From positions 62,001-126,000 of the forward strand of contig NZ_KB907453.1 in the NCBI RefSeq assembly GCF_000382045.1: 64,000 nucleotides of DNA, written 5' to 3'. This DNA comes from Variovorax atrisoli 110B (GTDB lineage Bacteria; Pseudomonadota; Gammaproteobacteria; Burkholderiales; Burkholderiaceae_C). The notes beneath the pieces are model-generated. The model worked only from the letters and a program-made list of their open reading frames with translations, made no database searches and was not told where the DNA came from. Made by a program: the position numbers and the translations under genes. Below, in pieces: positions 2 to 25,630 of this stretch; position 1 is the first letter of the stretch; the number at the start of each line of letters is the position of its first letter.

Positions 2-1963
2 GAGAACAGCGCGAGCGAAGCCACCGCGGCCGCCACGCTCGCAGCCTCCGTCAACTACCCGCTGCGCGGTGCCGTCACCTTCAAGGCCACCGTGGGTACC
101 AATGTGGCCTCCGACGCGCTGGCCAACCTGGCCTCGGGCGGCGTGACCGGTGGCGCGCTCATCATCGTGGGCGAGGACTATGGCGAAGGCTCGTCGATCA
201 TGCAGGAACGCAGCCACGCCTTCGCAATGAAGTCGCAGATCTGGCTCCTCGATCCGCGGCCCAACCTGCCCAGCATCGTCGATGCGGTGAAGCAGGGCTT
301 CGACCTCTCCGAAGCCAGCAACACGCCGGTGATGCTGCAACTGCGCATCCGCGCCTGCCACGTGCACGGCCACTTCGTCGCGGGCGACAACAAGCGCGCG
401 AAGTTCACGCTGAAGGACGCGCTCGAGAACCCGCAGCGCGATGTCGGCCGCATCGTGCTGCCGCCTGCGAGCTTCGTGCACGAGCAGGAGAAGGTGAAGG
501 ACCGCTGGCCCGCTGCCGTGCGCTTCATCGAGGAGCGCAAGCTCAACGAGTTCTTCTCGGAAGACGCCGACGACATCGGCATCATCGTGCAGGGCGGCAG
601 CTACAACACGCTGGTGCGCGCCCTCGAACGCCTCGGCCTCGCGGACGTCTACGGCAACACCCAGGTGCCGCTGTACGTGATGAACGTCGCCTATCCCGTC
701 ATCGAGAGCGAGGTGATCCGCTTCTGCGAAGGCAAGCGCGCGGTGCTCGTGGTGGAAGAGGGGCAGCCCAACTTCGTCGAGCAGAACCTCGCGACCATCC
801 TGCGCCAGGCCGGGTCCTCCACGGTGCTGCACGGCAAGGACATGCTGCCGGTGGCCGGCGAATACACCGCCTCCGAGCTGCTCAAGGGCGCGCGCAGCTT
901 CTGCGAGCGCTATGAACGCCTCGCGCCATTGCCGGTGCCCGCGCCCGTGCGCAAGGTGATCCCGCTGACCGAGGTCGCGGCCGAGCCTGCGCAGCCCGTC
1001 GCGCCGCTCGGCGAAGTGGTCCACGCCCGTCCGCCGGGCTTCTGCACCGGCTGCCCGGAGCGTCCCATCTTCAGTGCGATGAAGCTGGTCGAGCGCGAGC
1101 TCGGTCCGCACCACGTGAGTGCCGACATCGGCTGCCACCTGTTCTCCATCCTGCCGCCCTTCAACATCGGCAACACCACCATGGGCTACGGCCTCGGTGG
1201 GGCGGGTGCCGCTGCGCTCAATGCACCTGCAGGCAAGCGCGCGATCTCGATGATGGGAGACGGCGGCTTCTGGCACAACGGCCTGACCAGCGGCGTCGCC
1301 AACGCGGTCTTCAACAAGAGCGACAACCTCACCATCGTCGTCGACAACAACTACACCTCGGCCACCGGCGGGCAGGACATCCTCTCGTCGAACGCCGTCA
1401 ACAAGACGCGCAGCACGGGCCACGAGATCGAGAGCGCCGTGCGCGGCGTGGGCGTGAAGTGGGTGAAGACCATGCGCCGCACCTATGACATCGCCGGCAT
1501 GCGCGACGCGCTCAAGGAGGCGCTCACCACCAGGGAGAAGGGCCCGAAGGTGCTGATCGCGCAGTCGGAGTGCATGCTCAACAAGCAGCGCCGCGAGAAG
1601 CCGCTGGTGCGCAAAGCCATCGCCGACGGCAAGCGCATGGTGCGCGAGAAGTTCGGCGTCGACTCCGACACCTGCACCGGCGACCACTCCTGCATCCGCC
1701 TCTCGGGCTGCCCGTCGCTGTCGATCAAGCCCAACCCCGATCCGCTTCGCACCGACCCGGTCGCGGCCGTGCTCGACAGCTGCGTGGGCTGCGGCGTGTG
1801 CGGCGAGGTCTCGCACGCTGCCGTGCTGTGCCCCTCCTTCTACAAGGCGCAGATCGTGAGCAACCCCAGCCGCTGGGACCAGCTGCGCGAGCGCGTGCGC
1901 GCGGCCGTCATCGGCTGGATGCAGCGCGGCGAGGCTCGCCGCCGTCAAGCCTATGCCTTCTGA
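2..1963 (+). CDS. iorA: 2-oxoacid (indolepyruvate-type) ferredoxin oxidoreductase alpha subunit, 5' end outside window
   Basis: The reading frame is open at the left edge, so the start is not in the window; 653 residues are visible. The family oxidatively decarboxylates aryl 2-oxoacids to aryl-CoA with ferredoxin as acceptor. The middle shows a thiamine-diphosphate domain (FCTGCPERP, then GDGGFWHNG and the metal-binding VDNNYTSATGG). The C-terminus carries two cysteine clusters, CTGDHSCIRLSGCP and CVGCGVCG followed by CP, as in IorA. The beta subunit follows at 2101. Beside an isatin-hydrolase-like gene, I infer the substrate may be isatinate (2-aminophenylglyoxylate) rather than indolepyruvate; phenylglyoxylate oxidoreductases are a precedent. 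Confidence 0.9.
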   Translation, partial: ENSASEATAAATLAASVNYPLRGAVTFKATVGTNVASDALANLASGGVTGGALIIVGEDYGEGSSIMQERSHAFAMKSQIWLLDPRPNLPSIVDAVKQGFDLSEASNTPVMLQLRIRACHVHGHFVAGDNKRAKFTLKDALENPQRDVGRIVLPPASFVHEQEKVKDRWPAAVRFIEERKLNEFFSEDADDIGIIVQGGSYNTLVRALERLGLADVYGNTQVPLYVMNVAYPVIESEVIRFCEGKRAVLVVEEGQPNFVEQNLATILRQAGSSTVLHGKDMLPVAGEYTASELLKGARSFCERYERLAPLPVPAPVRKVIPLTEVAAEPAQPVAPLGEVVHARPPGFCTGCPERPIFSAMKLVERELGPHHVSADIGCHLFSILPPFNIGNTTMGYGLGGAGAAALNAPAGKRAISMMGDGGFWHNGLTSGVANAVFNKSDNLTIVVDNNYTSATGGQDILSSNAVNKTRSTGHEIESAVRGVGVKWVKTMRRTYDIAGMRDALKEALTTREKGPKVLIAQSECMLNKQRREKPLVRKAIADGKRMVREKFGVDSDTCTGDHSCIRLSGCPSLSIKPNPDPLRTDPVAAVLDSCVGCGVCGEVSHAAVLCPSFYKAQIVSNPSRWDQLRERVRAAVIGWMQRGEARRRQAYAF

Positions 1964-2002
1964 ATGAGTCCCTCCATGCAAAGCAAAAACATGGTGTCGA
2001 AG

Positions 2003-2097
2003 TTCCAGGGATGCCGCGGAACCGGCCTTGCCGGGCCGCAGGTATCGCCCCCGATAGGGGGTTGGCGGCTACACGAAGTGAGCAAGCCTGGGGGGGA
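2003..2097 (-). repeat. Dispersed palindromic repeat, copy A (reverse orientation)
   Basis: It fills the gap between the alpha and beta oxidoreductase genes. Read on the minus strand it has the family layout: CCCCCAGGCTT, CACTTCGTGT, a short C-run/G-run hairpin, CGGCCCGGCAAGGCCGGTTCCGCGG in two halves, and a TTCC/GGAA-type end. Copies in the opposite orientation are at 5945, 10603, 14671 and 44489. Confidence 0.75.
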
Positions 2098-2100
2098 GCA

Positions 2101-3594
2101 ATGAGCCCGATCAAGATCGCGATCCTCGCCATGGGCGGTGAGGGCGGTGGCGTGCTCGCCGACTGGATCGTCGACATGGGCGAGGCCAACGGCTATGTCG
2201 CCCAGACCACCTCCGTGCCGGGCGTGGCCCAGCGCACCGGCGCGACCATCTACTACGTCGAGCTCTACCCCGCGGCGCAGGCCGAGGCCGACAGCGGCAC
2301 CCCGGTGCTCGCTCTGATGCCGCTGCCGGGCGACGTCGACGTGGTGCTCGCATCCGAGCTGATGGAAGCCGGCCGCGCCGTGCAGCGTGGCCTGGTCACG
2401 CGCGAGCGCACCACGCTGATCGCCTCCACGCACCGCGTGTTCTCCATCGCCGAGAAGAGCGCGATGGGCGATGGCCGCGTCGACAGCGGCCAGCTCCTGG
2501 CCCACACCGCGAACGCAGCCAAGCGCTTCATCCGCTTCGACATGGCCCAGGCCGCCGAGGCTTCGGGCAGCGTGATCAGCGCGGTGCTCTTCGGTGCGTT
2601 GGCAGGTTCGGGCGTGCTGCCGTTCAGCCGCGCGCAGTTCGAGGCGACCATCGAACGCGGCGGCGTAGGCGTGAAGCCCAGCCTCAAGGCCTTCGGTGCG
2701 GCATTCGAACGAGCTCAGGGCGGCGACGATGGCGAGCCGGCGAAGGAGGCACCGGTCGCCGCCCCCGCGCCACAGCCGCGACACCCTGCAGTGCGGGCGT
2801 TGGTCGAGCGTGTGCACAACAGCTTCCCGACGGCAGCGCAAGACCTGCTGCTCGAAGGCGTGCGCCGGCTCATCGACTACCAGGACCCGGCCTACGCCGG
2901 CCTCTATCTCGACCGCATGGCCGCCATTGCGGCCTTGCCCGCGGGAGACCACCGCCTGCTTCGCGAAACCGCGCGCCACCTCGCGCTCTGGATGTCCTAC
3001 GAAGACACCGCCCGCGTCGCGGCCCTGAAGACCCGCGCCACCCGCTTCGAGCGCGTGCGCGGCGAGGCGCGCGTGCAGCCCGGGCAGGTGCTCGCCATCA
3101 ACGAATACATGCATCCGCGCCTGCAGGAGATCTGCGAGACGCTGCCCGGCGGCATCGGCCGCTGGCTCATGAACTCCACGCTGCCGAAGAAGATCGTCGA
3201 GCGCTTCACGCAGCGCGGCCGCGTGATCCAGACCAGCTCGCTGCGCGGCTACCTCATGCTGCGCATGGTGGCGGCATGCAGGCGCTGGCGCCTGTCGACC
3301 ATGCGCTACGCGGAGGAGAACCGCCGCATCGAGGAATGGCTGCAGCGCATCGCCGCCACGGCGCAGCGCAATCCGGACCTTGCCGTCGAGCTCGCCCAGT
3401 GCCAGCGCCTCGTCAAGGGCTACAGCGACACGCACGAGCGCGGCATCCGCAACTACGACACCGTGATGCGCGCCTTCGAGCGCGCGGGCGACAGGCTCGC
3501 ACCGGCCACGCTGCGCGAACTGCGCGACGCCGCGCTGGCCGACGAACACGGCCACAAGCTGCAGGCCGCGCTGGCGCAGCACGCGCTGGCCTGA
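2101..3594 (+). CDS. iorB: 2-oxoacid (indolepyruvate-type) ferredoxin oxidoreductase beta subunit
   Basis: A 497-residue partner of the preceding alpha subunit. Residues 1 to about 190 are the gamma domain of the pyruvate-ferredoxin oxidoreductase family, with the Gly-rich AMGGEGGGVLADW near the N-terminus and SVPGVAQRTGATIYY. The C-terminal ~300 residues match the helical DUF6537-type extension of long IorB proteins. The ATG follows a GGGGGGAGCA stretch that is also the edge of repeat copy A, so the repeat seems to supply the ribosome binding site. Such enzymes are usually oxygen-sensitive, which is notable beside oxygenase genes, though aerobic IorAB forms are known. Confidence 0.88.
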   Translation: MSPIKIAILAMGGEGGGVLADWIVDMGEANGYVAQTTSVPGVAQRTGATIYYVELYPAAQAEADSGTPVLALMPLPGDVDVVLASELMEAGRAVQRGLVTRERTTLIASTHRVFSIAEKSAMGDGRVDSGQLLAHTANAAKRFIRFDMAQAAEASGSVISAVLFGALAGSGVLPFSRAQFEATIERGGVGVKPSLKAFGAAFERAQGGDDGEPAKEAPVAAPAPQPRHPAVRALVERVHNSFPTAAQDLLLEGVRRLIDYQDPAYAGLYLDRMAAIAALPAGDHRLLRETARHLALWMSYEDTARVAALKTRATRFERVRGEARVQPGQVLAINEYMHPRLQEICETLPGGIGRWLMNSTLPKKIVERFTQRGRVIQTSSLRGYLMLRMVAACRRWRLSTMRYAEENRRIEEWLQRIAATAQRNPDLAVELAQCQRLVKGYSDTHERGIRNYDTVMRAFERAGDRLAPATLRELRDAALADEHGHKLQAALAQHALA

Positions 3595-3610
3595 AGAGAA
3601 GAGAACGACG

Positions 3611-4603
3611 ATGAGCACAAATCCAGCCACCCTCTCGCTGCGCGTTGCCGAGGCGCGCGAACTGAACCCGCTGATCCGCATGCTGCGCCTGCGCGCCGAC
3701 GACGGCCGCGCGCTGCCCGGCTTCGCGGCGGGTGCCCATATCCGCGTGCAGGTGTCGCTGCCCGGCGGCAAGACCGACTGGCGCCACTACTCGCTCATCA
3801 ACTTCGACACGGCGCGCAACGCCACCAACGCACCGACCGAGTACGTGATCGCGGTGCGCAAGGAGGCCGAAGGCCGCGGCGGCTCGCGCTTCATGCACGA
3901 CGGTCTGAAGGAGGGCGACACCATCGCCATTGAGCCGCCGAAGAACGACTTTCCGCTGCACACCGGCCCGGGCGGCACCGTGCTCGTGGCGGGCGGCATC
4001 GGCGTCACGCCCATGGCCACCATGGCCGCGCGCCGCCGCGCCGAGGGTGCTGCCGTGCGCATGCACTACGCCGGTCGCAGCCGCGAGCTGATGGCCTTCC
4101 TGCCCGAACTGCAGGCGCTGCTGGGCGACGACCTGCACGTGCACGCCGATGCAGAGGCTGGCGCGCCGCTGGCCATCGACGCTTTGCTCGATGGCGTTCC
4201 TGCAGGCGACCGCCTGTATGTGTGCGGCCCCAAGGTCATGCTCGACGCGGTGCTCGAACGCACCCAGGCACGCGGCTGGGAGCACGACCGCGTGCACTTC
4301 GAGCTCTTCAACGAGCCCGTCGCGGAAGAGGGCGACCAGCCCTTCGAAGTGGAGCTTGCCCAGTCGGGCCAGCGCTTCACGGTGCCGGCGGACCAGAGCA
4401 TCCTCGACTGCCTCATCGAGCACGGCTGCGACCCGATGTTCGACTGCAAGCGCGGCGAATGCGGCGTGTGCGCAGTGCCCGTGCTCGAAGGCGAGATCGA
4501 CCATCGCGACTACGTGCTCACAGCCCGGGAGAAGGCGGAAGGCAACGTCATGCAGATCTGCATCTCGCGCGCCAAGGGGGCGCGCCTCGTGCTGGACATC
4601 TGA
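3611..4603 (+). CDS. Phthalate-dioxygenase-reductase-type FMN/2Fe-2S oxidoreductase
   Basis: A 330-residue electron-transfer protein taking electrons from NAD(P)H to a Rieske oxygenase. Domains in order: flavin-binding barrel with RHYSL near residue 58, nucleotide-binding domain with GGIGVTPM near 127 and YVCGP near 205, then a plant-type [2Fe-2S] ferredoxin domain with C279, C284, C287 and a fourth Cys near 317. The RxYS form and the C-terminal ferredoxin are typical of the FMN-dependent PDR/VanB class. It sits 21 nt before the first Rieske alpha gene and is the only reductase in the locus, so it probably serves both Rieske pairs. It corresponds to the reductase of iad-type loci (inference). 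Confidence 0.88.
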   Translation: MSTNPATLSLRVAEARELNPLIRMLRLRADDGRALPGFAAGAHIRVQVSLPGGKTDWRHYSLINFDTARNATNAPTEYVIAVRKEAEGRGGSRFMHDGLKEGDTIAIEPPKNDFPLHTGPGGTVLVAGGIGVTPMATMAARRRAEGAAVRMHYAGRSRELMAFLPELQALLGDDLHVHADAEAGAPLAIDALLDGVPAGDRLYVCGPKVMLDAVLERTQARGWEHDRVHFELFNEPVAEEGDQPFEVELAQSGQRFTVPADQSILDCLIEHGCDPMFDCKRGECGVCAVPVLEGEIDHRDYVLTAREKAEGNVMQICISRAKGARLVLDI

Positions 4604-4623: not shown

Positions 4624-5937
4624 ATGACCTCCTACAGAGACAACCCCGATGCCATCCGTGCGCTGGTGCAGAACGACCGGGTGCACCGCGACCTGTACAC
4701 CAGCCAGGAGCTCTTCGAGCTGGAGCAGGAGCACTTCTTCGCCAACACCTGGAACTACGTCGGCCACGAGAGCCAGCTGCCCAGGCCCGGCGACTGGATC
4801 AGCAACGAGATCGCAGGCCGCCCGCTGATCGTGGTGCGCCACTCCGACGGCAGCGTGCGCGTGATGATGAACCGCTGTGCCCACAAGGGCTCTCGCCTCG
4901 TCAACGGGCCCTGCGGCAACACCGGCAAGTTCTTCCGCTGCCCCTATCACGCCTGGACCTTCAAGACCGACGGCGCGCCGCTGGCGATTCCGCTGAAGAC
5001 GGGCTACGAGAACACCCAGCTGCACGAGTGCGAGTCGGGCAAGGGCCTGACCACCGTGAAGCACGTGCGCAGCCACCGCGGCTTCATCTTCGTGAAGATC
5101 AACGATGCCGGCCCCGATTTCGACGAGTACTTCGGCGACTCGTTGAGCTCCATCGACAACATGGCCGACCGCTCGCCCGAAGGCGAACTGGAGATCGCCG
5201 GCGGCTGCCTGCGCTTCATGCACCAGTGCAACTGGAAGATGTTCGTGGAGAACCTCAACGACACCATGCACCCGATGGTGGCGCACGAGTCGTCGGCCGG
5301 CACCGCCAAGCGCATGTGGGCCGACAAGCCCGAGAGCGAGCCCAAGCCCATGGCGGTGGAGCAGTTCGTGCCCTTCATGTCCGACTACAAGTTCTTCGAG
5401 GACATGGGCATCCGCACCTACGACAACGGCCACAGCTTCACCGGCGTGCACTTCAGCATCCACAGCAAGTACAAGGCGATCCCCGAGTACGACAACGCGA
5501 TGAAGGCCCGCTACGGCGAGGAGAAGACTGCGCAGATACTCGGCATGGCGCGGCACAACACCGTCTACTACCCGAATCTCACGATCAAGGGCGCGATCCA
5601 GGCGATCCGCGTGGTCAAGCCGATCTCCGCCGACAAGACCCTCATCGAGAGCTGGACCTTCCGCCTCAAGGGCGCGCCGCCCGAGCTGCTGCAGCGCACC
5701 GCCATGTACAACCGCCTCATCAACTCGCCTTTCTCGGTGGTGGGCCATGACGACCTGCAGGCCTATCGCGGAATGCAGGCCGGCCTGCACGCGAGCGGCA
5801 ACGAGTGGGTCAGCTTGCACCGCGACTACGACCCGGCCGAACTGAAGGGCGGCGAGATCACCACCGGCGGCACCAACGAACTGCCGATGCGCAACCAGTA
5901 CCGCAGCTGGGTCCAGCGCATGACGGAGACAATGTAA
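4624..5937 (+). CDS. Rieske non-haem iron ring-hydroxylating oxygenase, alpha subunit (pair 1)
   Basis: A 437-residue catalytic subunit. The Rieske [2Fe-2S] site is C85-x-H87 and C106-x2-H109. The mononuclear iron site is D213-x2-H216-x4-H221, with D213 the usual bridging Asp. The ATG has AGGAG upstream. The beta subunit follows at 6056, separated only by repeat copy B. It is clearly paralogous to the alpha subunit at 14803: same length, same positions for all ligands. In an auxin-degrading reading, one of the two pairs would oxidise indole-3-acetate to dioxindole-3-acetate; which pair does so cannot be told from sequence. Confidence 0.9.
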   Translation: MTSYRDNPDAIRALVQNDRVHRDLYTSQELFELEQEHFFANTWNYVGHESQLPRPGDWISNEIAGRPLIVVRHSDGSVRVMMNRCAHKGSRLVNGPCGNTGKFFRCPYHAWTFKTDGAPLAIPLKTGYENTQLHECESGKGLTTVKHVRSHRGFIFVKINDAGPDFDEYFGDSLSSIDNMADRSPEGELEIAGGCLRFMHQCNWKMFVENLNDTMHPMVAHESSAGTAKRMWADKPESEPKPMAVEQFVPFMSDYKFFEDMGIRTYDNGHSFTGVHFSIHSKYKAIPEYDNAMKARYGEEKTAQILGMARHNTVYYPNLTIKGAIQAIRVVKPISADKTLIESWTFRLKGAPPELLQRTAMYNRLINSPFSVVGHDDLQAYRGMQAGLHASGNEWVSLHRDYDPAELKGGEITTGGTNELPMRNQYRSWVQRMTETM

Positions 5938-6055: not shown

Positions 6056-6538
6056 ATGACATCGGTGACGCATCAGGACCTGATCGACTTCGTCGTGAAC
6101 GAGGCGTACCTGCTCGACACCCGCCGCTACGAGGAGTGGAACGCGCTCTTCACCGACGACGCCTTCTACTGGATACCGTTGATTCCCGACCAGGAAGACG
6201 GCCTCAACCACACCTCGCACCTCTACGAGGACAAGCTGCTGCGCGACCTTCGCATCGAGCGCCTGAAGAGCCCGCGCGCCTTCTCGCAGCAGCCGCCGAG
6301 CCGCTGCCACCACCTGCTGCAGGTGCCGGTGGTCGAGCAGTTCGACGCGGAAGCCAACCGCTACGTGGTGCGCACCTCGTTCCACTACACCGAGTCGCAG
6401 GGCGACGAGATCCAGTTCTACGTGGGCACCTTCTTCCACCACCTCACGGTGCAGGACGGCGCGCTGCGCATGACGCTCAAGCGCGTCAACCTGCTCAACT
6501 GCGACGCGGCCCTGCCGGCCGTGCAGCTCTTCATCTGA
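6056..6538 (+). CDS. Rieske oxygenase beta subunit (pair 1)
   Basis: A 160-residue small subunit of the SnoaL/NTF2-like fold that packs the alpha subunits into an alpha3beta3 hexamer and carries no cofactor. Family features are the N-terminal DLIDFVVNEAYLLDTRRYEEW, FTDDAFYWIP, the YEDKLLRDLRIERL segment and the C-terminal PAVQLFI end. It is paralogous to the 154-residue protein at 16125. It ends 10 nt before the CoA ligase gene, so it is in the same transcript. Confidence 0.88.
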   Translation: MTSVTHQDLIDFVVNEAYLLDTRRYEEWNALFTDDAFYWIPLIPDQEDGLNHTSHLYEDKLLRDLRIERLKSPRAFSQQPPSRCHHLLQVPVVEQFDAEANRYVVRTSFHYTESQGDEIQFYVGTFFHHLTVQDGALRMTLKRVNLLNCDAALPAVQLFI

Positions 6539-6548: not shown

Positions 6549-8174
6549 ATGCCACACGCCACCGTCCATCAAGTCTTCGCGGCCACGGCCGCGCGTACGC
6601 CGCAGGCCGAATTCCTCTTCACCGAATCGGTGACCGCCGCCGCCTACGGCATCGAAGCGGGCGCCATCCACTGGGGCGATGCGGCGGAGCGCATCGAGCG
6701 CCTGCGCACAGCCTATGCACGGGCCGGCTACGGCCACGGCCATCGCGTCGGCCTGCTGCTGGAGAACCGGCCGGCCTTCATCTTCCACTGGCTCGCGCTG
6801 AACGCGCTGGGCGTGAGCGTGGTGCCGATCAACGCAGAGATGCGCTCGGCCGAACTGGTCTACCTGATCGGCCACAGCGAGATCGGCCTGGCCGTCACGC
6901 TGCCGGAGCGCGCGGGCGACCTGCGTGCCGCGGCTGCGAAGGCGGGCATCGCCTTCGAGACCATGGGCCCAGACGATGCAGTGCCTCCCGCGAAGACAGC
7001 TGCGCCTCGCGCCCACGAGCCCGTGGGTGTCGACACCGAGTGCGGCCTGCTCTACACCTCCGGCACCACGGGCCGCCCCAAGGGCTGCATCCTGAGCAAT
7101 GACTACTTCCTGCGCGCAGGCGAGTGGTATGCGGCGCTCGACGGCGTGTGCAGCATCCGGCCCGACAGCGAGCGCGTGATCACACCGCTGCCGCTCAACC
7201 ACATGAACGCGATGGCCTTCTCCACCATGGTGGTGCTGGTCGCTGGCGGCTGCCTGGTGCAGCTCGACCGCTTCCATCCGAAGACCTGGCTGGCGAGCGC
7301 GAAGGAGAGCGGCGCGACCATCGTCCACTACCTGGGCGTGATGCCCGCCATGCTGCTGTCCGCGCCTGCATCGGCAGCCGACCGCGACCATGCCATCCGC
7401 TGGGGCTTCGGCGCGGGTGTGGACCGCAAGAACCACGCGCCCTTCGAGGAGCGCTTCGGCTTCCCGCTGGTGGAGGCCTGGGCCATGACCGAGACTGGCG
7501 CGGCCGCCTGCATCATGGCCAACCGGGAGCCGCGCCTGGTGGGTACCAGCTGCTTCGGGCGGCAGGAGGACTTCGTCGAGATCCGCCTCGTGGGCGACGA
7601 TGGCAGCGATGTCGGCGTCGATGCACCGGGCGAACTTCTGGTGCGCTCGGCCGGCCGCGATCCGCGGCGCCACTTCTTCTCCGGCTACTTGAAGGACGAC
7701 GAAGCCACGCGCGAAGCCTGGGCCGACGGCTGGTTCCACACCGGCGACCTGGTGCGCCGCGATGCCGAGGGCAACTTCTTCTTCGTCGATCGCAAGAAGA
7801 ACGTGATCCGCCGCAGCGGCGAGAACATCTCGGCCGTCGAAGTCGAGAGCGTGCTCAACCAGCATCCGGCCGTGAAGGCATCGGCCGTGGCCGCCACGCC
7901 CGACGAGGTGCGCGGCGACGAGGTGCTTGCCTGCATCGTGATGCGCGAAGGCGCCGATGCCTCGAAGCCGCAGCAGACGGCAGCCAGCATCGTGGAGCAC
8001 GCGCTCGCGCAGCTCGCCTACTACAAGGCGCCCGGCTACGTGGCCTTCGTCGAAGCGCTGCCGCTCACGCCCTCGCAGAAGATCCAGCGCGGACAGCTGC
8101 GCGAGATGGCGCAGTCGCTGCCCGGCCAGGCCCATTGCATCGACACCCGCTCGATGAAGAAGAGGCAGGCATGA
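6549..8174 (+). CDS. AMP-forming acyl-CoA ligase 1
   Basis: A 541-residue ANL-superfamily enzyme that makes an acyl-adenylate and then the CoA thioester. Motifs: P-loop YTSGTTGRPKG near residue 170, AWAMTETG adenine motif, GWFHTGDLVRRDAEG, and the hinge/A8 region RKKNVIRRSGENIS, plus a C-terminal Lys in SQKIQRG. The CaiC/benzoate-CoA-ligase-like subgroup fits best. In context it would activate the oxidised aryl-acetate (for example dioxindole-3-acetate) before side-chain cleavage. Its stop overlaps the next start (ATGA), indicating translational coupling. A second ligase lies at 21489. Confidence 0.88.
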   Translation: MPHATVHQVFAATAARTPQAEFLFTESVTAAAYGIEAGAIHWGDAAERIERLRTAYARAGYGHGHRVGLLLENRPAFIFHWLALNALGVSVVPINAEMRSAELVYLIGHSEIGLAVTLPERAGDLRAAAAKAGIAFETMGPDDAVPPAKTAAPRAHEPVGVDTECGLLYTSGTTGRPKGCILSNDYFLRAGEWYAALDGVCSIRPDSERVITPLPLNHMNAMAFSTMVVLVAGGCLVQLDRFHPKTWLASAKESGATIVHYLGVMPAMLLSAPASAADRDHAIRWGFGAGVDRKNHAPFEERFGFPLVEAWAMTETGAAACIMANREPRLVGTSCFGRQEDFVEIRLVGDDGSDVGVDAPGELLVRSAGRDPRRHFFSGYLKDDEATREAWADGWFHTGDLVRRDAEGNFFFVDRKKNVIRRSGENISAVEVESVLNQHPAVKASAVAATPDEVRGDEVLACIVMREGADASKPQQTAASIVEHALAQLAYYKAPGYVAFVEALPLTPSQKIQRGQLREMAQSLPGQAHCIDTRSMKKRQA

Positions 8175-13488: not shown

Positions 13489-13510
13489 AACGCCCGACGT
13501 GAAGACCCCC

Positions 13511-16128: not shown

Positions 16129-16589
16129 CGGACCCGCGCGATTTCGTCGCCCACGAGGCGGCGCTGCTCGACGAACGCCGCTTCGACGACTGGCTGGCCC
16201 TGTTCTCCGAGGACGGCCACTACTGGGTGCCGCTGCTCGGCGCGGCGCAGGCCGATCCCTTCTCGCACAACTCGCTGGCCTACGAGGACCGGCTTCTGCT
16301 GCAGCTGCGCGTGGAGCGGCTGAAGAACCCGCGCGCGCATTCGCAGCACCCCGCAAGCCACAGCCAGCATGTGCTGCAGCCCTCGCGCATCGAGCGCGAG
16401 GAGGGCGACGAAGCGTGGCTGCGCACGCCGTTCCTCTATGTCGAGGCGCGCGGCGAAGGCCAGCTGCTGCTCAGCGGTACGGCGCGCCACCACCTCGTTC
16501 GCACATCGACGGGATGGCTGATCCGCGAGAAGCGCGTCGACCTGCTCAATGCGGGGCGAGCCTTGCCGGCCATCCAGCTGTTTATCTGA
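16125..16589 (+). CDS. Rieske oxygenase beta subunit (pair 2)
   Basis: A 154-residue SnoaL/NTF2-fold subunit with SEDGHYWVPLL, YEDRLLLQLRVERLKNPRAHS and the C-terminal PAIQLFI shared with the 6056 paralogue. The ATG overlaps the stop of the alpha gene (ATGA), so synthesis of the two is coupled. No cofactor motif is expected. It ends 58 nt before binding protein 3. Confidence 0.88.
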   Translation: MTDPRDFVAHEAALLDERRFDDWLALFSEDGHYWVPLLGAAQADPFSHNSLAYEDRLLLQLRVERLKNPRAHSQHPASHSQHVLQPSRIEREEGDEAWLRTPFLYVEARGEGQLLLSGTARHHLVRTSTGWLIREKRVDLLNAGRALPAIQLFI

Positions 16590-18901: not shown

Positions 18902-20685
18902 ACGGCAATCGCAAGCGCATGGCGTGGATCGCCGGGCTGGTCGTGGTGCTGGCGCTGGTGCCGGTGTTCGCGGGCAGCTTCACCGTCTCGCTGCTCAACG
19001 ACATCGGCATCGGCGCGCTCGTGGCGCTGGGACTCGTGCTGCTGACCGGCGTGGGCGGCGCCACCTCCTTCGGGCAGGCGGCCTTCGTGGGCATCGCGGC
19101 CTACGCGACCGCGTGGCTCACCACCACGCAGGGCATGTCGCCGTGGCTCGGGCTGTTGTTCGCGCTGCTGCTCACGGGGCTGTCGGCATTGGCCATCGGC
19201 ATGCTCACGCTGCGGCTGGGCGGGCACTTCCTGCCGCTGAGCACCATCGCCTGGGGGCTCTCCATCGCGATGCTGTTCGGCAACGTGGATGGCCTGGGCC
19301 GGCACACGGGCCTGTCGAACATACCGGCGCTGCAGATCGCAGGCTGGTCGCTGGCCGATCCGCGTGCGATGTACTTCCTGATCTGGACGGTGGTGGGCCT
19401 GGCCTGCCTGTTCAGCCACAACCTGCTGCAGTCTCGGCCGGGGCGTGCCATCCGCGGGCTGCGCGGCGGTGCGACGCTGCTGGCGAGCGTGGGCGCCGAT
19501 GCATATCGCGTGCGGCTCTCGCTGTTCGTCACCGCGGCGCTGCTCGCGGGGCTGGCGGGCTGGCTCTACGCGCACATGAACCGCTTCGTGAGTCCGTCGC
19601 CCTTCGACGTGCGCGCCAGCATCGAGTACTTGCTGATGGCGGTGGCCGGCGGCCTGGGCCAGCTGGGCGGAGCGCTCGTGGGTGCCGCGCTGGTGCTGGT
19701 GCTGAAGAACGGCCTGCAGGACGTGCTGCCGATGCTCACGCAGCGCGCCGGCCAGCTGGAGGCGGTGGCCTTCGCCGCGCTCTTCATCCTGCTGCTGCAC
19801 TTCGCGCGCGGTGGCGTGATGGGGCTGCTGCGCCGCTGGACCCGACGCCGCGCCGGCGCGCGGGGGCCTTCGCGCCACGAAGGGCCCGCGGTCGAACCGC
19901 TGCCCAACCGCACGCTGCCCGCGCGCGGCTCGCCCGTGCTGTCGGTGAACGGCGCGGTCAAGCGCTTCGGCGGCCTCGTGGCGGTGAACGACGTGAGCTT
20001 CGACGTGAAGGCCGGCGAGATCGTCGGGCTGATCGGGCCGAACGGCGCGGGCAAGTCGACCATGTTCAATCTGCTGACCTGCACGCTGCCGATGAGCTCG
20101 GGCCAGGTGCGCTTCCTCGAGCACGACATCGCCGGCATGCCGCAGCGCGAGGTGGCGCGTCTGGGGCTGGCGCGCACCTTCCAGCACGTGAAGCTGCGCC
20201 CGCACATGAGCCTGCTCGACAACGTGGCGCTGGGTGCGCATTCGCGCACGCGCTCGGGCATCCTGAAGGCGGGCCTGCGGCTCGATCGCACGGAAGAGCA
20301 GCAGATCCTGCAGGAAGCGCAGCGCCAGCTCGACCGCATCGGCCTGGGCGACCGCGCGCACGAGCAGGCGGGTAGCCTGCCGCTGGGCACGCAGCGCATC
20401 CTGGAGATCGCTCGCGCGCTGGCCGCCGACCCGGTGCTGCTGGTGCTCGACGAGCCTGCGGCCGGGCTGCGGCGCAAGGAGAAGATGGCGCTCGGCGACC
20501 TTCTGCGCAAGCTGCGCGAGGAAGGCGTGACCATCCTCATCGTGGAACACGACATGGACTTCGTGATGAAACTGGTGGATCGGCTGGTGGTGATGAATTT
20601 CGGCTCCAAGCTCGTGGAGGGCGTGCCGTCGGCGGTGCGTGCCGACGAGCGCGTTCAGGCGGCCTACCTGGGGAGCGTCGTATGA
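18898..20685 (+). CDS. LIV-type ABC transporter permease-ATPase fusion (LivM-LivG)
   Basis: A 595-residue fusion. Residues about 1-320 are a LivM-like permease (SFGQAAFVGIAAY, RLGGHFLPLSTIAWG). Residues about 345-595 are a LivG-like ATPase: Walker A GPNGAGKS near residue 380, Q-loop ARTFQH, Walker B VLLVLDEPAAGL, switch His IVEHD. The ABC signature region reads SLPLGTQRILE, in line with LivG-type ATPases. Such fusions occur elsewhere in the family. The linker contains a run of basic residues (RRWTRRRAGAR). Confidence 0.88.
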   Translation: MNGNRKRMAWIAGLVVVLALVPVFAGSFTVSLLNDIGIGALVALGLVLLTGVGGATSFGQAAFVGIAAYATAWLTTTQGMSPWLGLLFALLLTGLSALAIGMLTLRLGGHFLPLSTIAWGLSIAMLFGNVDGLGRHTGLSNIPALQIAGWSLADPRAMYFLIWTVVGLACLFSHNLLQSRPGRAIRGLRGGATLLASVGADAYRVRLSLFVTAALLAGLAGWLYAHMNRFVSPSPFDVRASIEYLLMAVAGGLGQLGGALVGAALVLVLKNGLQDVLPMLTQRAGQLEAVAFAALFILLLHFARGGVMGLLRRWTRRRAGARGPSRHEGPAVEPLPNRTLPARGSPVLSVNGAVKRFGGLVAVNDVSFDVKAGEIVGLIGPNGAGKSTMFNLLTCTLPMSSGQVRFLEHDIAGMPQREVARLGLARTFQHVKLRPHMSLLDNVALGAHSRTRSGILKAGLRLDRTEEQQILQEAQRQLDRIGLGDRAHEQAGSLPLGTQRILEIARALAADPVLLVLDEPAAGLRRKEKMALGDLLRKLREEGVTILIVEHDMDFVMKLVDRLVVMNFGSKLVEGVPSAVRADERVQAAYLGSVV

Positions 20686-20686
20686 G

Positions 20687-20767: not shown

Positions 20768-21499
20768 ATGACAGCGATGCTCGAGATCGGCGACCTGCAT
20801 GTCTCCTATGGACAGGTGGAGGCGGTACGCGGTGTGTCGCTCGACCTTCAGCCGGGCCAGATCATCTCGGTGATCGGCCCCAACGGCGCGGGCAAGACCA
20901 CGCTGCTGGCCGCCGCCATGGGCCTGCTGCCGTGCAGGGGCACGCTGCGCTTCGAGGGCGAGGACCTGCAGGGGCTCGACGTGGAGGCGCGCGTGGAGCG
21001 CGGCCTGTGCCTCGTGCCCGAGAAGCGCGAGCTCTTCGGCGAGCTCACCGTGCTCGACAACCTGCAGCTCGGCGCATTCGCCAAGCGGCTGCGCGGCGAT
21101 GCGATGAAGAAGCGGCTGCAGTCGGTATACGACCGCTTTCCGCGTCTGGCCGAACGCCGCTCGCAGCGCGCCGACACGCTCTCGGGCGGCGAGCGCCAGA
21201 TGCTGGCCGTGGGCCGCGCGCTGATGTCGGCGCCGCGCCTGCTGATGCTCGACGAGCCCAGCCTCGGCCTGGCGCCGCTGATCGTGCGCGACATCCTGGC
21301 GATCGTGCGCAAGCTGCGGGAGGATGGCGTGTCGATCCTGCTGGTGGAGCAGAACGCGCGCGCCGCGCTCGAAAGCTCCGACCACGGCTATGTGCTGGAG
21401 ACGGGCGAGATCGCGCTCTCCGGGGCCTCCGCCGAACTGGCGAGCGACTCGCGGGTGCAGGCGACCTACCTCGGCGGGGGCACGCACGATGACGACTGA
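20768..21499 (+). CDS. livF: LIV-type ABC transporter ATP-binding protein (LivF-like)
   Basis: A 243-residue ATPase with Walker A GPNGAGKT, signature LSGGERQ, Walker [14 protein letters not shown] and switch His replaced by the LivF-typical LVEQN. It completes the transporter with the LivH and LivM-LivG proteins and three binding proteins. The start is the ATG at 20768, right after repeat F. The following CoA ligase starts 11 nt before this gene ends, in another frame. Confidence 0.9.
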
Positions 21500-23078
21500 A
21501 CCCCGCGCCGTGCCGCCCGCGCAGCGCACGCTGCCGGCAATGCTGCAGCGGCAGGCCGGGCTGTTCGGCTCGCGCGCGCTGCTGAAGATCGCGCGGAGCG
21601 AGTGGACGCATCGCGATGCAGCCCGCGTCGCGGCGGCGCGGGCCGGCGCGCTGGCGGCGGCCGGCGTGGTGCGCGGCGATCGCATCGCGGTGATGTGCGG
21701 CAACCGCGTCGAGTTCCTCGAGAGCTTCCTGGGCGCGGGATGGCTGGGGGCGTCGACGGTGCCGGTCAATACGGCGTCGATGGGGCCGCAGATCGAATAC
21801 TTCCTCGCGAACAGCGAGGCGAAGCTGCTGGTGATCGAAGGCGCCTTCCTGGAACGGCTCGCGGCGGCGGACCTGGGGCGTACCGCGCTGCGGGAGATCT
21901 GGGTCGTCGGCGAGATCGCCTCGGGTGCCTGGCAGGCGCCTGCGGGCGTGCGCGTCGTGGCGTATCCCGCGCATGGAGAACCCGTCGAGCCGGCACCCGT
22001 GCAGCCCGGCGACGCACTCGCGATCCTCTACACCTCGGGCACGACCGGGCCCGCCAAGGGCGTGGTCTGCCCGCACGCACAGTATTTCTGGTGGGGCGTG
22101 AACAGCGCGGAGGTGCTCGGCGTGGGCGCCGACGACGTGCTTTGCACCACGCTGCCGCTCTTCCACATCAACGCGCTCAACACCTTCGCCCAGGCCGCTC
22201 TGACGGGCTCGCAGGTCGTGTTCGAGACGCGCTTCTCGGCGTCGGGCTTCTGGCCGACGATGCGCGCGAGCGGGGCGACTGTGGTCTACCTGCTGGGCGC
22301 GATGGTGCCGATCCTGCTGGCCCAGCCCGAAGGTGCCGGGGAGCGCGACCACCGCGTGCGCATCGGACTGGGGCCCGGCGTGCCGGCCGCCGCCGGAGCC
22401 GCGTTCAAGGCGCGCACGGGCGTGTCACTGCTGGAGGGCTATGGCTCGACCGAGACCAACTTCGCCATCGCCACCGCACCGGATTCGCCGCGCGGCGGCG
22501 TGATGGGCTGGCTGCGCCCGGGTTTCCAGGCGCGCGTGGCCGACGAGGACGACGTGGCCCTGCCGGCCGGCGAGGCGGGCGAACTGCTGCTGCGCGCCGA
22601 CGAACCCCATGCCTTCGCGAGCGGCTACTTCAACATGCCGGAGAAGACGGTCGAGGCCTGGCGCAACCTCTGGTTCCACACCGGCGACCGCGTGGTGCGC
22701 GATGCTGACGGGGCCTTCCGCTTCGTCGACCGCATCAAGGACGCGATCCGGCGGCGCGGGGAGAACATCTCCTCGTTCGAGGTCGAGCAGGTGGTGCTGA
22801 GCCATCCAGGCGTGGCTTCGTGCGCGGTGTATCCCGTGCGCTCCGAACTCGCCGAGGACGAGGTGATGGCCGCGCTGGTGGCCCGCGAAGGCGCGGCCAT
22901 CGACCCCGCCGAGCTCGCGCGCTTCTGCGAGGGCCGGCTGCCGTACTTCGCCGTGCCGCGCTACATCGACGTGCTGGCCGACCTGCCGCGCACCGAGAAC
23001 GGCAAGGTCCAGAAGTTCAAGCTGCGGGAACGCGGCGTGGGGCCGCAGACCTGGGACGGCCGGCCCGCGAAGGCCTGA
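21489..23078 (+). CDS. AMP-forming acyl-CoA ligase 2
   Basis: A 529-residue ANL-superfamily ligase with [11 protein letters not shown] near residue 180, [39 protein letters not shown] and a C-terminal catalytic Lys in [10 protein letters not shown]. It is in the same CaiC-like subgroup as the ligase at 6549 but clearly divergent from it. It may activate a different intermediate (for example the substrate itself versus the oxindole product). The start overlaps livF, which supports expression with the transporter. Confidence 0.87.
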
Positions 23079-23080
23079 GC

Positions 23081-23833
23081 ATGGCGAGCCTGGCGCCGCA
23101 GCTTCCTCTTTCCGGGCGTGTGGCGTTCGTGACGGGAGCGGGGCAGGGCCTGGGCGCGGCCATCGCGAAGGGGCTGGCACAGGCGGGCGCACGGGTGGCG
23201 CTGGCCGACCTCGAGCTGTCGTCGACGGTGGCCGTGGCCGACGGGATCGGCGGCCTCGCGCTGCGGCTCGACGTGCGCGACGAAGCGGCATTCCGCGAGT
23301 GCTTCGACAGGGCCGTGGCGCATTTCGGCTGTGTCGACATCATGGTCAACAACGCGGCGCGTACGCCATCGACCTCGCTGTGGGACATCACGCCCGAGGA
23401 GTGGGACGACGTGCTGGCCATCAACCTGCGCGGCAGCTTCTTCGGCTGCCGCATCGCAGGGCGCCACATGCGCGAGCGCGGCGAGGGGCGCATCGTCAAT
23501 CTCGGTTCGATGGCTGGGCAGCAGGCGAGCCGCGCGACGGGCGTGCACTACGCGGCGAGCAAGGCCGGGCTGCTGGCGCTGACGCGGTCGTTCGCGCAGG
23601 AGCTGGCGCCTCATGGCGTGACGGTGAATGCGCTCGCGCCGGCGGCGATCCGTAGTCCCGCGCTCGATGCCATGGAGCCGGCGAGGCAGCAGGCGCTGCA
23701 GGCCGGCATCCCGCTCGGCCGCTTCGGACTGGCCGAGGAAGTGGCCGCGGCCGTGATCTACCTGGCTTCTCCTGCGGCGGCCTTCATGACCGGCGCGACG
23801 CTGGACCTCAACGGCGGCCGTTTCATGCGCTGA
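23081..23833 (+). CDS. Short-chain dehydrogenase/reductase (FabG-like)
   Basis: A 250-residue classical SDR with TGAGQGLG at residues 18-25, NNAA in place of NNAG, and Y157-x3-K161 (YAASK). It has the Asp after beta-2 (LADLE) that favours NAD(H). It starts 2 nt after the ligase stop. A role in converting a hydroxyacyl-CoA or oxindole intermediate is plausible but not shown. Confidence 0.85.
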   Translation: MASLAPQLPLSGRVAFVTGAGQGLGAAIAKGLAQAGARVALADLELSSTVAVADGIGGLALRLDVRDEAAFRECFDRAVAHFGCVDIMVNNAARTPSTSLWDITPEEWDDVLAINLRGSFFGCRIAGRHMRERGEGRIVNLGSMAGQQASRATGVHYAASKAGLLALTRSFAQELAPHGVTVNALAPAAIRSPALDAMEPARQQALQAGIPLGRFGLAEEVAAAVIYLASPAAAFMTGATLDLNGGRFMR

Positions 23834-23860
23834 CAAGGCTTGCCGGGCCATCCGGTTAAA

Positions 23861-23880: not shown

Positions 23881-23886
23881 TCAGGT

Positions 23887-24663
23887 ATGCAATCAAATTC
23901 ACTGACTGGCCGGCACGCCCTCGTCACGGGCGCTGCGCGCGGCATCGGGGCGGAGATCGCCCGCACCCTGGCTGCCGAAGGCGCCACGCTGACATTGCTG
24001 GGTCGTGACCGCGAGGCGCTGCAGCGGGTGGCGGATTCGCTCGCCGGCAGCGGGCACGGCGTCGTCGCCGCGGACGTGGCGAACCCGCAGGCCGTGCAGG
24101 CGGCGTTCGCTGAGGCACGCGCGGCGCGCGGGCCCGTGGCGGTGCTCGTCAACAACGCGGGGGCGGCGGAGAGCGCGCCTTTCCTCAAGACCTCGTTCGA
24201 GCTCTGGCAGCGGATGCTGTCGGTCAACCTCACGGGCAGCTTCCTCTGCGCGCAGGCGGCGCTGCCAGACATGCTCGACGCGGGCTGGGGGCGCATCGTC
24301 AACATCGCCAGCACGGCGGGGCAGAAGGGCTACGCCTACGTGGCGGCCTACACCGCGGCCAAGCACGGCGTGGTCGGGCTCACGCGCTCGCTGGCGCTGG
24401 AGGTGGCGCGCAAGGGCATCACGGTGAATGCCGTGTGCCCGGGCTATACCGACACCGACATCCTGCGCAACAGCGTTGCCAACGTGGTCGGCAAGACCGG
24501 GCGCAGCGAGGCCGATGCGCTCGCGGAGTTCTCCAGCGTCAATCCGCAGAAGCGCATCGTGCAGCCGGCCGAAGTGGCCGATGCCGTGCGCTGGCTGTGC
24601 GGCGCGGGCGCTGCATCGGTCACCGGCCAGTCGATCTCGGTTTCAGGGGGAGAAGTGACATGA
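23887..24663 (+). CDS. Short-chain dehydrogenase/reductase (3-hydroxyacyl-CoA dehydrogenase-like)
   Basis: A 258-residue SDR with TGAARGIG at residues 14-21, NNAG and Y155-x3-K159 (YTAAK). The CPGYTDTD segment after the active site and [17 protein letters not shown] resemble 3-hydroxybutyrate and 3-hydroxyacyl-CoA dehydrogenase SDRs. It is the first gene after the candidate operator at 23861. Its stop overlaps the MarR start by 4 nt. Confidence 0.85.
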
Positions 24664-25193
24664 CCACACGCAACGACGCCTCGCATGCCGTGCTGAGCGA
24701 TGCGGAAGAACTGGGCCACGAGGCCCGCGCCGGCCACGACGACCACGCGGTGCTCAAGCTGTGGCTTCGCATGCTGGCCAGCACCACGCAGATCGAGTCC
24801 GAGATCCGCCGCCGCCTGCGCGAGCGTTTCGGCATCTCGCTGGCGCGCTTCGACTACATGGCGCAGCTCTACCGCTACAAGGACGGGCTGAAGATGCGCG
24901 TGCTGTCGCGCTACCTGATGGTGACCGGCGGCAATGTCACCGGCCTGACGGACGAACTCGAGCGCGAAGGCATGGTCGCCCGCGCGCCGAGCCCCGACGA
25001 CCGCCGCGCCTGGATCGTGAGCCTCACGCCCACCGGCCGCCGCACCTTCGAGACCATGGCGAGCGAGCACGAGCAGTGGATCCTCGAGATGTTCTCGGGC
25101 CTCGACATGAAGACCGTCAAGCAGCTGCACATGCAGCTCGGCCTGCTGCGCGTGCACGTAATGCGCGGCGAACCGGCAAGCGAGGAGGGCTGA
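24660..25193 (+). CDS. MarR-family transcriptional regulator
   Basis: A 177-residue winged-helix repressor-type protein. The DNA-binding region runs from about residue 70 ([20 protein letters not shown]) through the wing [16 protein letters not shown]; dimerisation helices lie at both ends. MarR proteins are usually released from DNA by an aromatic ligand, and in Variovorax iad loci a MarR regulator senses indole-3-acetate. I therefore infer control of this locus by its substrate, with the inverted repeat at 23861 as a probable target. The ATGA overlap with the SDR gene couples translation. Confidence 0.9.
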
Positions 25194-25195
25194 GC

Positions 25196-25630
25196 ATGGC
25201 CGAGGGCAGCGAGTTCTGCAGGCCGCGGCTGATCCGCTTCTCGGACTGCGATCCGGCGGGCATCGTCTTCTATCCGCAATACTTCGTGATGCTCAACGGC
25301 CTCGTCGAAGACTGGGTGAACGAAGGCCTGGGCCTCAGCTACCACGGGCTGGTGGCGCAGCGGCGCATCGGCCTGCCCACGGTGAAGCTCGAGGTCGACT
25401 TCCGAGCGGTGAGCCGCATGGGCGACCAGGTGATGCTGGGGCTGGCCGTAGAGCGCCTCGGTTCCCGTTCGTTGACCTTGCAGGTGCGCTGCTTCGAGCC
25501 AGTGAGCGGAGAAGTGCGCATGCAGATGCAGCAGGTACTGGTGACCACGTCGCTGGAGACCCATCGGGCCGTCGCCATTCCGGGCGACATGCGTGCGGCC
25601 ATCGTGCGCAACGCGCCCGCGCTGGGCTGA
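25196..25630 (+). CDS. 4-hydroxybenzoyl-CoA thioesterase-family (hot-dog) thioesterase
   Basis: A 144-residue acyl-CoA thioesterase. The signature DCDPAGIVFYPQYF places the catalytic carboxylate at D19, matching the active-site Asp of 4-hydroxybenzoyl-CoA thioesterase. It starts 2 nt after the MarR stop. If the iorAB products make anthraniloyl-CoA, this enzyme could release anthranilate; it might instead rescue CoA from dead-end esters. It is the last gene of the block and converges on the HTH gene 7 nt away. Confidence 0.85.
   Translation: MAEGSEFCRPRLIRFSDCDPAGIVFYPQYFVMLNGLVEDWVNEGLGLSYHGLVAQRRIGLPTVKLEVDFRAVSRMGDQVMLGLAVERLGSRSLTLQVRCFEPVSGEVRMQMQQVLVTTSLETHRAVAIPGDMRAAIVRNAPALG

Follow-up and report, generated by a model that had tools for sequence, protein, structure and literature searches.

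The aerobic catabolism of the auxin indole-3-acetate (IAA) through iad genes has been described in Variovorax paradoxus CL14, for the proteins of which the function of IadR, the import of IAA, and its conversion to dioxindole-3-acetate (DOAA) were reported. In PMC12633357, the first oxidation is presented as a monooxygenation followed by a dehydrogenation by IadJ, and the middle steps are assigned from annotation, with IadG as a ketothiolase and IadH as an alcohol dehydrogenase. The genes iadA and iadB have been put forward as exclusive markers of iad-like loci (PMC9613470). In the present study, we analyzed a window of 64,000 nucleotides from Variovorax atrisoli 110B (contig C4, positions 62001-126000, of a 7.5-Mb genome), the first 25.6 kb of which is filled by an iad locus. 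Window positions 1-25630 were confirmed to be the Variovorax iad locus, the 5' end of which is cut by the window edge. We consider it very probable that IadG and IadH carry out a retro-aldol cleavage to isatin, that IadI is an isatin hydrolase, and that the short-chain dehydrogenase/reductase (SDR) half of IadH is inert.

Regarding the identity of the locus, the iadD product scored 998.9 bits to 9O71 and 994.1 bits to 7YLS, the iadE product 343 bits to the subunit 7YLS_A, IadK2 703.8 bits to 7YLT, and IadR 312 bits to 7KKI, all of which are solved V. paradoxus proteins. The seven published IAA-contact residues of MarR_73 (PMC9613470) were all present in IadR by reading (Y15, A18, S28, H32, W45, R46, and V65). 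Both marker genes were found by Pfam, iadA encoding a thiamine pyrophosphate (TPP)-dependent enzyme and iadB a POR domain with DUF6537, and the gene order R-ABCDEFGHIJ-K agrees with that given by the published gene numbers of CL14. An earlier note, made from the letters of the window alone, had called this an iad-type locus, which these scores and the gene order bear out; the comparison of gene order with the Variovorax iad locus that it proposed gave a match. Every family that it named was recovered by Pfam, with 23/23 in-window genes on the plus strand, and the ATGA overlaps that it described appear from the coordinates as four-base overlaps at iadF/iadG, iadG/iadH, iadI/iadJ, the second Rieske alpha/beta pair, livH/livMG, and SDR 3/MarR. 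Its description of the locus as complete-looking holds for the gene families and fails for the boundary: the locus starts before the window, iadA beginning at -208 and iadR lying at -829 to -353. In total, 24 locus genes were called, 23 reaching into the window plus iadR outside it, and all were scanned with Pfam; those from iadR to iadK3 are as follows.

Window -829 to -353 (C4:61171-61647), minus strand: iadR, divergent IAA-sensing repressor, 312 bits to 7KKI.
Window -208 to 1963, plus strand: iadA, TPP-dependent 2-oxoacid:ferredoxin oxidoreductase alpha subunit, IOR_alpha 289.5 bits, under the equivalog cut-off of 650.9.
2101-3594, plus strand: iadB, oxidoreductase beta subunit, POR domain and DUF6537.
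3611-4603, plus strand: iadC, flavin/2Fe-2S reductase for the Rieske oxygenase, by Pfam.
4624-5937, plus strand: iadD, Rieske oxygenase alpha subunit (IAA oxygenase), 998.9 bits to 9O71.
6056-6538, plus strand: iadE, Rieske oxygenase beta subunit, 343 bits to 7YLS_A.
6549-8174, plus strand: iadF, AMP-forming CoA ligase (proposed DOAA-CoA ligase), by family.
8171-9346, plus strand: iadG, thiolase-superfamily protein read as a Sal/Ltp2-type retro-aldolase, with Gly88 and Tyr284-Asp-Asp286-Tyr.
9343-10596, plus strand: iadH, DUF35 protein (zinc ribbon and OB) fused to a degenerate SDR, with D176 and E180 in the glycine motif and F323 for the catalytic Tyr.
10717-11529, plus strand: iadI, read as an isatin hydrolase, with HTGTHFDAPIH, WYW, and GLQC, 371.7 bits to 5NNA.
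11526-12260, plus strand: iadJ, SDR with TGxxxGxG and YxxxK intact (DOAA-forming dehydrogenase in the published scheme).
12322-13488, plus strand: iadK2, IAA solute-binding protein, 703.8 bits to 7YLT.
13499-14665, plus strand: iadK3, related solute-binding protein, 568 bits to 7YLT.

The order iadR, iadA to iadJ recurred in full in 57/80 named loci, and in 55 of the 61 for which the stretch was at least 21.3 kb, so the co-occurrence of these genes exceeds what chance would give. The named loci, chosen by IadD, were the best 80 among 220 confirmed ones, and iadD is hence present in them by construction; of the 23 more distant loci used below, 22 were picked by IadH and one (L150) by IadD. An IadD-like match was found in 20/200 genomes of a family sample (E value of 1e-60 or better) and in 4/369 genomes of a class sample (1e-100), and iadH was near-core in Variovorax (90/101 genomes), each tally, including that of 98/101 given below, counting the window's own genome. 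The locus is thus a further copy of the published system, in the genus where it is best studied, and is ordinary for Variovorax.

In the proposed pathway, the locus would be kept repressed by IadR as long as no IAA is bound, IAA would be taken up via IadK2 and an ABC importer of the Liv type, and IadCDE with IadJ would oxidize it to DOAA, from which IadF would make DOAA-CoA. DOAA-CoA is a beta-hydroxyacyl-CoA that bears a tertiary alcohol in place of a ketone, and from its chemistry and the enzyme family it would be the expected substrate of an IadG-type retro-aldolase, giving isatin and acetyl-CoA. IadG, held by the DUF35 part of IadH, would perform this cleavage with Tyr284 deprotonating the tertiary 3-hydroxyl group, the side chain departing as the acetyl-CoA enolate, and Asp286 reprotonating the enolate, by which isatin would be left for hydrolysis to isatinate by IadI. 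The least certain part is the last, in which isatinate would be converted to anthranilate, perhaps via anthraniloyl-CoA made by IadAB and then a thioesterase. Gene identities, motifs, and gene order were read directly from the sequence, from which we infer the chemistry of IadG/IadH and IadAB and the substrate assignments in this strain; the first oxidation of IAA in the route drawn in the earlier note is likewise inferred.

Among solved proteins, the best-scoring relative of IadG was CtSal (9MYR; 185 bits), a bile-acid side-chain retro-aldolase, followed by 4U4E and TcLtp2 (6OK1; 144 bits). In the alignment with CtSal, Gly88 of IadG, which occupies the position of the nucleophile in thiolases, falls on Gly89; Tyr284 corresponds to Tyr302 (the base), Asp286 to Cys304 (the acid), and Gln329 and Gln334 to Gln347 and Gln352, the CtSal numbers including an offset of 24 between chain and paper numbering that was derived by hand. 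Gly-Gly-Ala-Ser, with Gly at the nucleophile position, was found in 73/73 near IadG rows and in 18/19 distant rows, the exception being L130, in which the gene looks broken, and the YDDY motif was present in all 73 near and all 19 distant rows; two of the latter (L099 and L100) are the window's and Variovorax Root473's own genes again. The acid Cys of the Sal type and the second Tyr of the Ltp2 type were both absent from the IadG alignment, and since Asp286 and Gln334 stand there instead, IadG is neither Sal nor Ltp2 proper, yet it may work in the manner of these aldolases. These residues point to a retro-aldolase of the Sal/Ltp2 type with a YDDY motif, not to a thiolase.

The earlier note had described the partner of IadG as a DUF35 protein; both families of this pair were found, and the description needs the correction that the DUF35 protein (9343-10596) is fused to an SDR domain. 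The Pfam order in IadH is zf-ChsH2 and OB_ChsH2_C, then adh_short, and its N-terminal part gave matches to 9MYR_B and 6OK1_B, both of which are DUF35 chains. We compared 94 distinct fused IadH sequences including that of the window, which are mostly from Variovorax and close kin, 30 being less than 85% identical to the window's. Only rows that began by residue 30 and reached residue 380 were retained; this left out, among others, L150, the SDR half of which contained neither motif by eye. The four zinc cysteines were intact in 94/94, and the glycine motif TGxxxGxG was broken in 94/94, with Asp (90 sequences) or Asn (4 sequences) in place of its first Gly. The Tyr of the active site was present in 10/94 (Phe in 75) and the Lys in 78/94. 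The glycine motif and Tyr/Lys were all intact in none of the 94 IadH sequences versus 82/82 distinct IadJ sequences (at least 45% identity and near-full length), and stand-alone SDR relatives kept the glycine motif in 12/12 rows covering it. The loss of the Tyr was rejected as an argument by itself, 3/14 stand-alone rows and 5U4S also lacking it; because the missing Tyr alone proves little, the argument for a dead SDR rests on the broken glycine motif.

The SDR fold appears to be retained in IadH. An AlphaFold2 model (21 rows) had a mean pLDDT of 83.1 and a pTM of 0.82, and it gave a TM score of 0.92 to 5U4S, normalized by the target. In the named loci, the conservation of the SDR half was no lower than that of the DUF35 part (mean identity 0.936 versus 0.895), and the half therefore seems to be kept for something. 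IadH is accordingly best described, as far as its sequence indicates, as a probable DUF35 partner with a retained non-catalytic SDR domain instead of a dehydrogenase, and the published role of an alcohol dehydrogenase is doubtful because the cofactor motif is broken in every distinct sequence. As far as a limited literature search shows, the views of IadG as a YDDY retro-aldolase and of IadH as a DUF35 protein with a pseudo-SDR appear to be new, and a word search of the main text of PMC12633357 returned neither "aldol" nor "DUF35".

IadI scored 371.7 bits to LaIHA (5NNA) and 371.4 bits to RsIHA (5NMP). The signature motifs of isatin hydrolases, HxG[T/A]HxDxPxH, WxW/FxW, and GLQC/GLAS, were defined in PMC6117287, and this signature was found in 71/71 near IadI rows; the 19 distant rows showed GLQC in 19, WYW in 17, and WKW in 2. 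On these motifs, we read IadI as an isatin hydrolase. Crystallized LaIHA shares 96.5% identity across 254 residues with the protein encoded by iadI in an iad locus on the Roseibium aggregatum plasmid NZ_CP128604 (L128), in which the LaIHA-like gene sits between iadH and iadJ. A biochemically studied isatin hydrolase would therefore be, in effect, an IadI, which we put forward as a proposal.

Downstream of iadK3, the locus continues with the following genes.

14803-16128, plus strand: second Rieske alpha subunit, 58% identical to IadD.
16125-16589, plus strand: second Rieske beta subunit, by family.
16648-17811, plus strand: third solute-binding protein, by family.
17846-18901, plus strand: LivH-type permease, by family.
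18898-20685, plus strand: LivM-type permease fused to a LivG-type ATPase, by family.
20768-21499, plus strand: LivF-type ATPase, by family.
21489-23078, plus strand: second AMP-forming CoA ligase, PRK06155 equivalog, 852.7 bits (cut-off 722).
23081-23833, plus strand: SDR 2, by family.
23887-24663, plus strand: SDR 3, by family; by position the probable counterpart of CL14 gene 51.
24660-25193, plus strand: iadR2, MarR_50-type regulator by position; closest paralog in the genome in a 2-aminobenzoyl-CoA-type operon on contig C2.
25196-25630, plus strand: 4HBT thioesterase, by family.

The dedicated ABC importer announced in the earlier note is present, with three solute-binding proteins as well as permeases and ATPases. 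The second Rieske pair (14803-16589) has no reductase gene beside it, and its alpha subunit was seen in 61/80 named stretches, several of which end before it. An assignment for the second CoA ligase was dropped: the same type occurs in the place of iadF (L091), beside iadGHI (L130), and near a bifunctional enzyme (L137 and L140). A gene pair of the octopine/nopaline-dehydrogenase family and a 3-hydroxyacyl-CoA dehydrogenase lies upstream of iad here (window -4596 to -2526; L005:15404-17474) and directly after iadJ in Paracoccus saliphilus (L134:13126-15227).

In the published scheme, IadG would be a ketothiolase (EC 2.3.1.16), IadH an alcohol dehydrogenase aiding a reductive removal of the acetyl side chain, and IadI an amidase of broad specificity that acts after C8H7NO2. 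The deletion of iadG, iadH, or iadI lowers anthranilate and C8H7NO2 accumulates in the iadI mutant, as that scheme has it, and its reactions were, by the authors' own account, inferred from annotation (PMC12633357). The same report describes C10H9NO4, read as DOAA, as accumulating in deletions of iadF, iadG, iadH, and iadI alike, and these mutants fit the retro-aldolase reading also. A ketothiolase is difficult to reconcile with the Gly that IadG has where thiolases have the nucleophilic Cys, and CtSal, which has the same Gly, was judged by its authors to be unable to perform thiolysis (PMC12329534). The dehydrogenase role of IadH faces the lack of a normal cofactor motif in all 94 sequences, and IadI carries the GLQC motif of isatin hydrolases, not that of KynB. 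By general chemistry, a ketothiolase would also meet a tertiary alcohol in place of a ketone. We regard the published assignments as unlikely; the motifs fit better with the suggestion of the earlier note, which is supported here, that the thiolase/DUF35 pair is an aldolase yielding isatin and acetyl-CoA and the cyclase an isatin hydrolase. A further alternative, that the locus serves mainly another indole or aromatic acid, for example via the second Rieske pair, with IAA as a side substrate, draws on the presence of that pair and of three solute-binding proteins, and on the fact that a solved IAA-acting orthologue exists for the first pair only. Since proteins with demonstrated IAA binding are close matches of IadR and IadK2, and Variovorax Root473, the IadD of which is 96% identical, is among the strains for which IAA degradation and induction by IAA have been described (PMC11630574), this alternative appears highly improbable. 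Relatives have been reported to grow on IAA and to be induced by it, with anthranilate as the product (PMC9613470, PMC11630574).

Several observations weigh against the retro-aldolase/isatin reading. In the absence of iadI, C8H7NO2, the formula of dioxindole and not of isatin, builds up, and the step was called reductive (PMC12633357); the reading thus needs isatin to be reduced by other enzymes of the cell. Four of the 94 IadH sequences keep Tyr and Lys together, and 5U4S, the nearest stand-alone SDR of known structure and NADP-bound by its title, lacks the Tyr as well. The locus of Methylibium rhizosphaerae (L085) has iadD, iadE, and iadJ and none of iadF, iadG, iadH, and iadI in the 10 kb after iadD, and the iadGHI triad is therefore not a must for every iadDE; this locus is perhaps a short, detoxifying version. 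Regarding the end of the pathway, a strain that lacks iadAB and has iadC-K2 still makes anthranilate (PMC12633357), and iadAB was absent from the stretch read of five distant loci with iadD (L128, L129, L131, L134, and L142).

The last two observations bear mainly on IadAB, by family a 2-oxoacid:ferredoxin oxidoreductase. Isatinate is an aryl 2-oxoacid, and its conversion to anthraniloyl-CoA would therefore be chemically natural for this enzyme; we consider the chances that IadAB does so to be close to even, and the thioesterase at 25196-25630 could then release anthranilate. It may instead be that IadAB works outside isatinate breakdown, for instance in the conversion of indole-3-pyruvate to indoleacetyl-CoA, as the family annotation, the dispensability of iadAB for the formation of anthranilate (PMC12633357), and the five distant iad cores without these genes would allow. 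Against such a role, iotA and iorB of Bradyrhizobium japonicum (iadA and iadB according to PMC9613470) rise 30.7- and 7.6-fold with IAA, the substrate that is degraded (PMC3788728), a 2-oxoacid from ring cleavage appears to be the substrate of an IOR-family enzyme in aerobic estrogen breakdown (PMC7793797), and the first gene to follow the published IadR site is iadA; we hold a role outside isatinate breakdown to be a tangible, if lesser, possibility. Compounds with the formulas of isatinic acid (C8H7NO3) and 2-aminobenzaldehyde (C7H7NO) were reported to build up in an iadC-K2-overexpressing deletion strain (PMC12633357), which by gene numbers is without iadAB, and this speaks for the action of IadAB on isatinate. 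TPP-dependent decarboxylase-like genes near iadGHI (L132:5323-6969 and L143:13171-14859) are possible alternative isatinate decarboxylases, and aldehyde dehydrogenase genes beside iad cores (L129:13812-15308 and L133:4470-5981) would fit 2-aminobenzaldehyde as an intermediate. The chemistry drawn in the earlier note is thus supported in the middle of the pathway and less certain at its end.

In addition to Variovorax, the three genes iadG, iadH, and iadI were found together across bacteria. The iadG gene abuts iadH in 94/94 loci with iadH (71/80 named and 23/23 distant), and iadI follows in 90 of the 93 loci with room for it; of the nine named loci without iadH, eight have stretches ending within 3.5 kb after iadD and one, L085, does not. 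In the distant loci, read over stretches of 14-29 kb, iadD was seen in 11/23 and iadA or iadB in 8/23. In plasmids of Agrobacterium pusense, Pukyongiella, and Shinella, the triad is present and the stretch read contains no iadCDE, and loci of Roseibium, Sulfitobacter, Ruegeria, and Paracoccus have the order C-D-E-F-G-H-I-J with no iadAB in the stretch read. Asp/Glu racemase-family genes were found in five iadGHI loci without iadCDE in the stretch (L132 and L136 as annotated, L140 by Pfam, and L138 and L141 by eye), accompanied in L132 and L136 by organic hydroperoxide resistance genes; in these five, a different upstream chemistry may feed the same iadGHI module. In Azospirillum thermophilum (L130), the thiolase-like and iadH genes are unannotated and the thiolase reading seems broken, and the locus may be decaying.

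Regarding the MarR regulator of the earlier note, a MarR gene is indeed present at 24660-25193, and the auxin sensor is not this protein, it is IadR, encoded outside the window. The product of 24660-25193 scored only 43 bits to MarR_73 and corresponds by position to a second regulator, MarR_50/IadR2 of CL14, for which no ligand was found in the published work; CL14 gene 51 was reported as the one gene released in a MarR_50 deletion (PMC9613470). As the IadR operator, a 26-bp near-palindrome between iadR and iadA (window -259 to -234; its score was reached by 10/500 shuffles) was rejected, being exact in 1/62 relatives and within one mismatch in one more. A 20-bp element at -299, ATGATTGTGGATACATTCAT, kept with 0-3 mismatches in 56/62 iadR-iadA intergenic regions, is the better candidate. 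A search for an operator shared by the SDR 2-SDR 3 gap and the C2 operon gave a single 11-base match with one mismatch.

A protein with FAD monooxygenase and OYE domains was found near iadGHI in L137 and L140 (2/23 distant and 0/80 named stretches), where NCBIfam names it a bifunctional salicylyl-CoA 5-hydroxylase/oxidoreductase; the L140 protein passes the cut-off and the L137 protein falls slightly short of it. Its architecture is presumably that of 2-aminobenzoyl-CoA monooxygenase/reductase. The genome studied here has such a bifunctional enzyme at C2:602396-604660, together with an acyl-CoA dehydrogenase, an enoyl-CoA hydratase, a MarR protein, and a CoA ligase that is closest to the benzoate-CoA ligase family, just below its cut-off. 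This MarR protein is by far the closest IadR2 paralog in the genome (158.3 bits and 52% identity, versus 36.8 bits for IadR as the next), and in L140 a homolog likewise lies between a CoA ligase and the bifunctional enzyme. Considering this paralogy and the precedent of CouR, a MarR protein for which the effector is an aryl-CoA rather than the free acid (PMC4737184), IadR2 is predicted to sense anthraniloyl-CoA or a similar thioester, which we offer, like the view of LaIHA as an IadI, as a proposal. The co-occurrence of iadH and the C2 bifunctional enzyme was uninformative in Variovorax, both being near-core (90/101 and 98/101).

Taken together, these results allow a broader and more tentative view, which we think somewhat less likely to hold in full than to fail in some part: iadGHI would be a portable module, consisting of a third, YDDY, active-site type of DUF35-dependent retro-aldolase, a partner whose dehydrogenase domain has lost its chemistry and yet has been kept across lineages, and an isatin hydrolase, placed on varied front ends with or without a Rieske oxygenase. 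In Variovorax, anthraniloyl-CoA from IadAB would then feed a 2-aminobenzoyl-CoA pathway whose genes lie at another place in the genome, and IadR2, an orphan regulator, would sense that aryl-CoA and not auxin.

Root bacteria are being equipped with iad genes as a means of balancing auxin (PMC12633357), by a design that relies on a pathway with middle steps assigned from annotation. If IadG-IadH is a retro-aldolase that requires no reductant and IadI an isatin hydrolase, the pathway would make acetyl-CoA and isatin, and an engineered strain would have to remove the latter, which is a reactive indole. The SDR domain of IadH, altered and yet conserved, has a counterpart in the inert hydratase of ChsH2, and IadH would offer a further system in which to test what such domains do. 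For IadR2, a regulator for which no ligand has been found, its paralogy with the regulator of a 2-aminobenzoyl-CoA-type operon suggests a concrete class of ligands.

Among known systems, the closest is the iad locus of V. paradoxus CL14 (PMC9613470, PMC10374108, PMC12633357), which has the same regulator, oxygenase, ligase, thiolase-like, cyclase, SDR, and solute-binding genes in the same order and an IadD nearly identical (9O71) to that encoded here; LivM and LivG are one fused open reading frame in the present locus, whereas they are probably separate in CL14, judging from its gene numbers. The iac loci of the Pseudomonas putida 1290 type likewise serve aerobic IAA catabolism, and differ in that the published iad markers iadA and iadB are present here. 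No gene of the acyl-CoA-dehydrogenase type, which we take iacA to be, was among the 24 Pfam-scanned genes; iacA, iacB, and iacI were not searched for by sequence. The aerobic 2-aminobenzoyl-CoA pathway of Azoarcus evansii (PMC4539516) resembles the C2 set in its FAD/OYE enzyme, CoA ligase, acyl-CoA dehydrogenase, enoyl-CoA hydratase, and MarR protein; this set is unlinked to iad here, and its substrate is not settled, given the name salicylyl-CoA 5-hydroxylase/oxidoreductase in NCBIfam. LaIHA of Labrenzia aggregata (5NNA; PMC6117287) has HxGTHxDxPxH, WxW, and GLQC in common with IadI, and no difference in the signature was seen.

Regarding the aldolase step, CtSal-CtShy (9MYR; PMC12329534, PMC11321319) shares with IadG the Gly at the nucleophile site, the catalytic Tyr, and both Gln residues, and has, like IadG, a DUF35 partner that is encoded next door and fused to another enzyme domain. 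The acid position is Asp in IadG (YDDY) and Cys in CtSal (YDCY), IadH keeps the four-Cys zinc site, the fused domain is an SDR in IadH versus a MaoC hydratase, and the predicted substrate of IadG is an indole, whereas that of CtSal is a steroid. TcLtp2-ChsH2 (6OK1) is also a thiolase-fold retro-aldolase with a DUF35 partner; Ltp2 has YDHF and a second Tyr, in contrast to the YDDY of IadG with Gln at the position of the second Tyr, and ChsH2, as IadH appears to do, bears an enzyme domain without its catalytic residues (PMC11321319).

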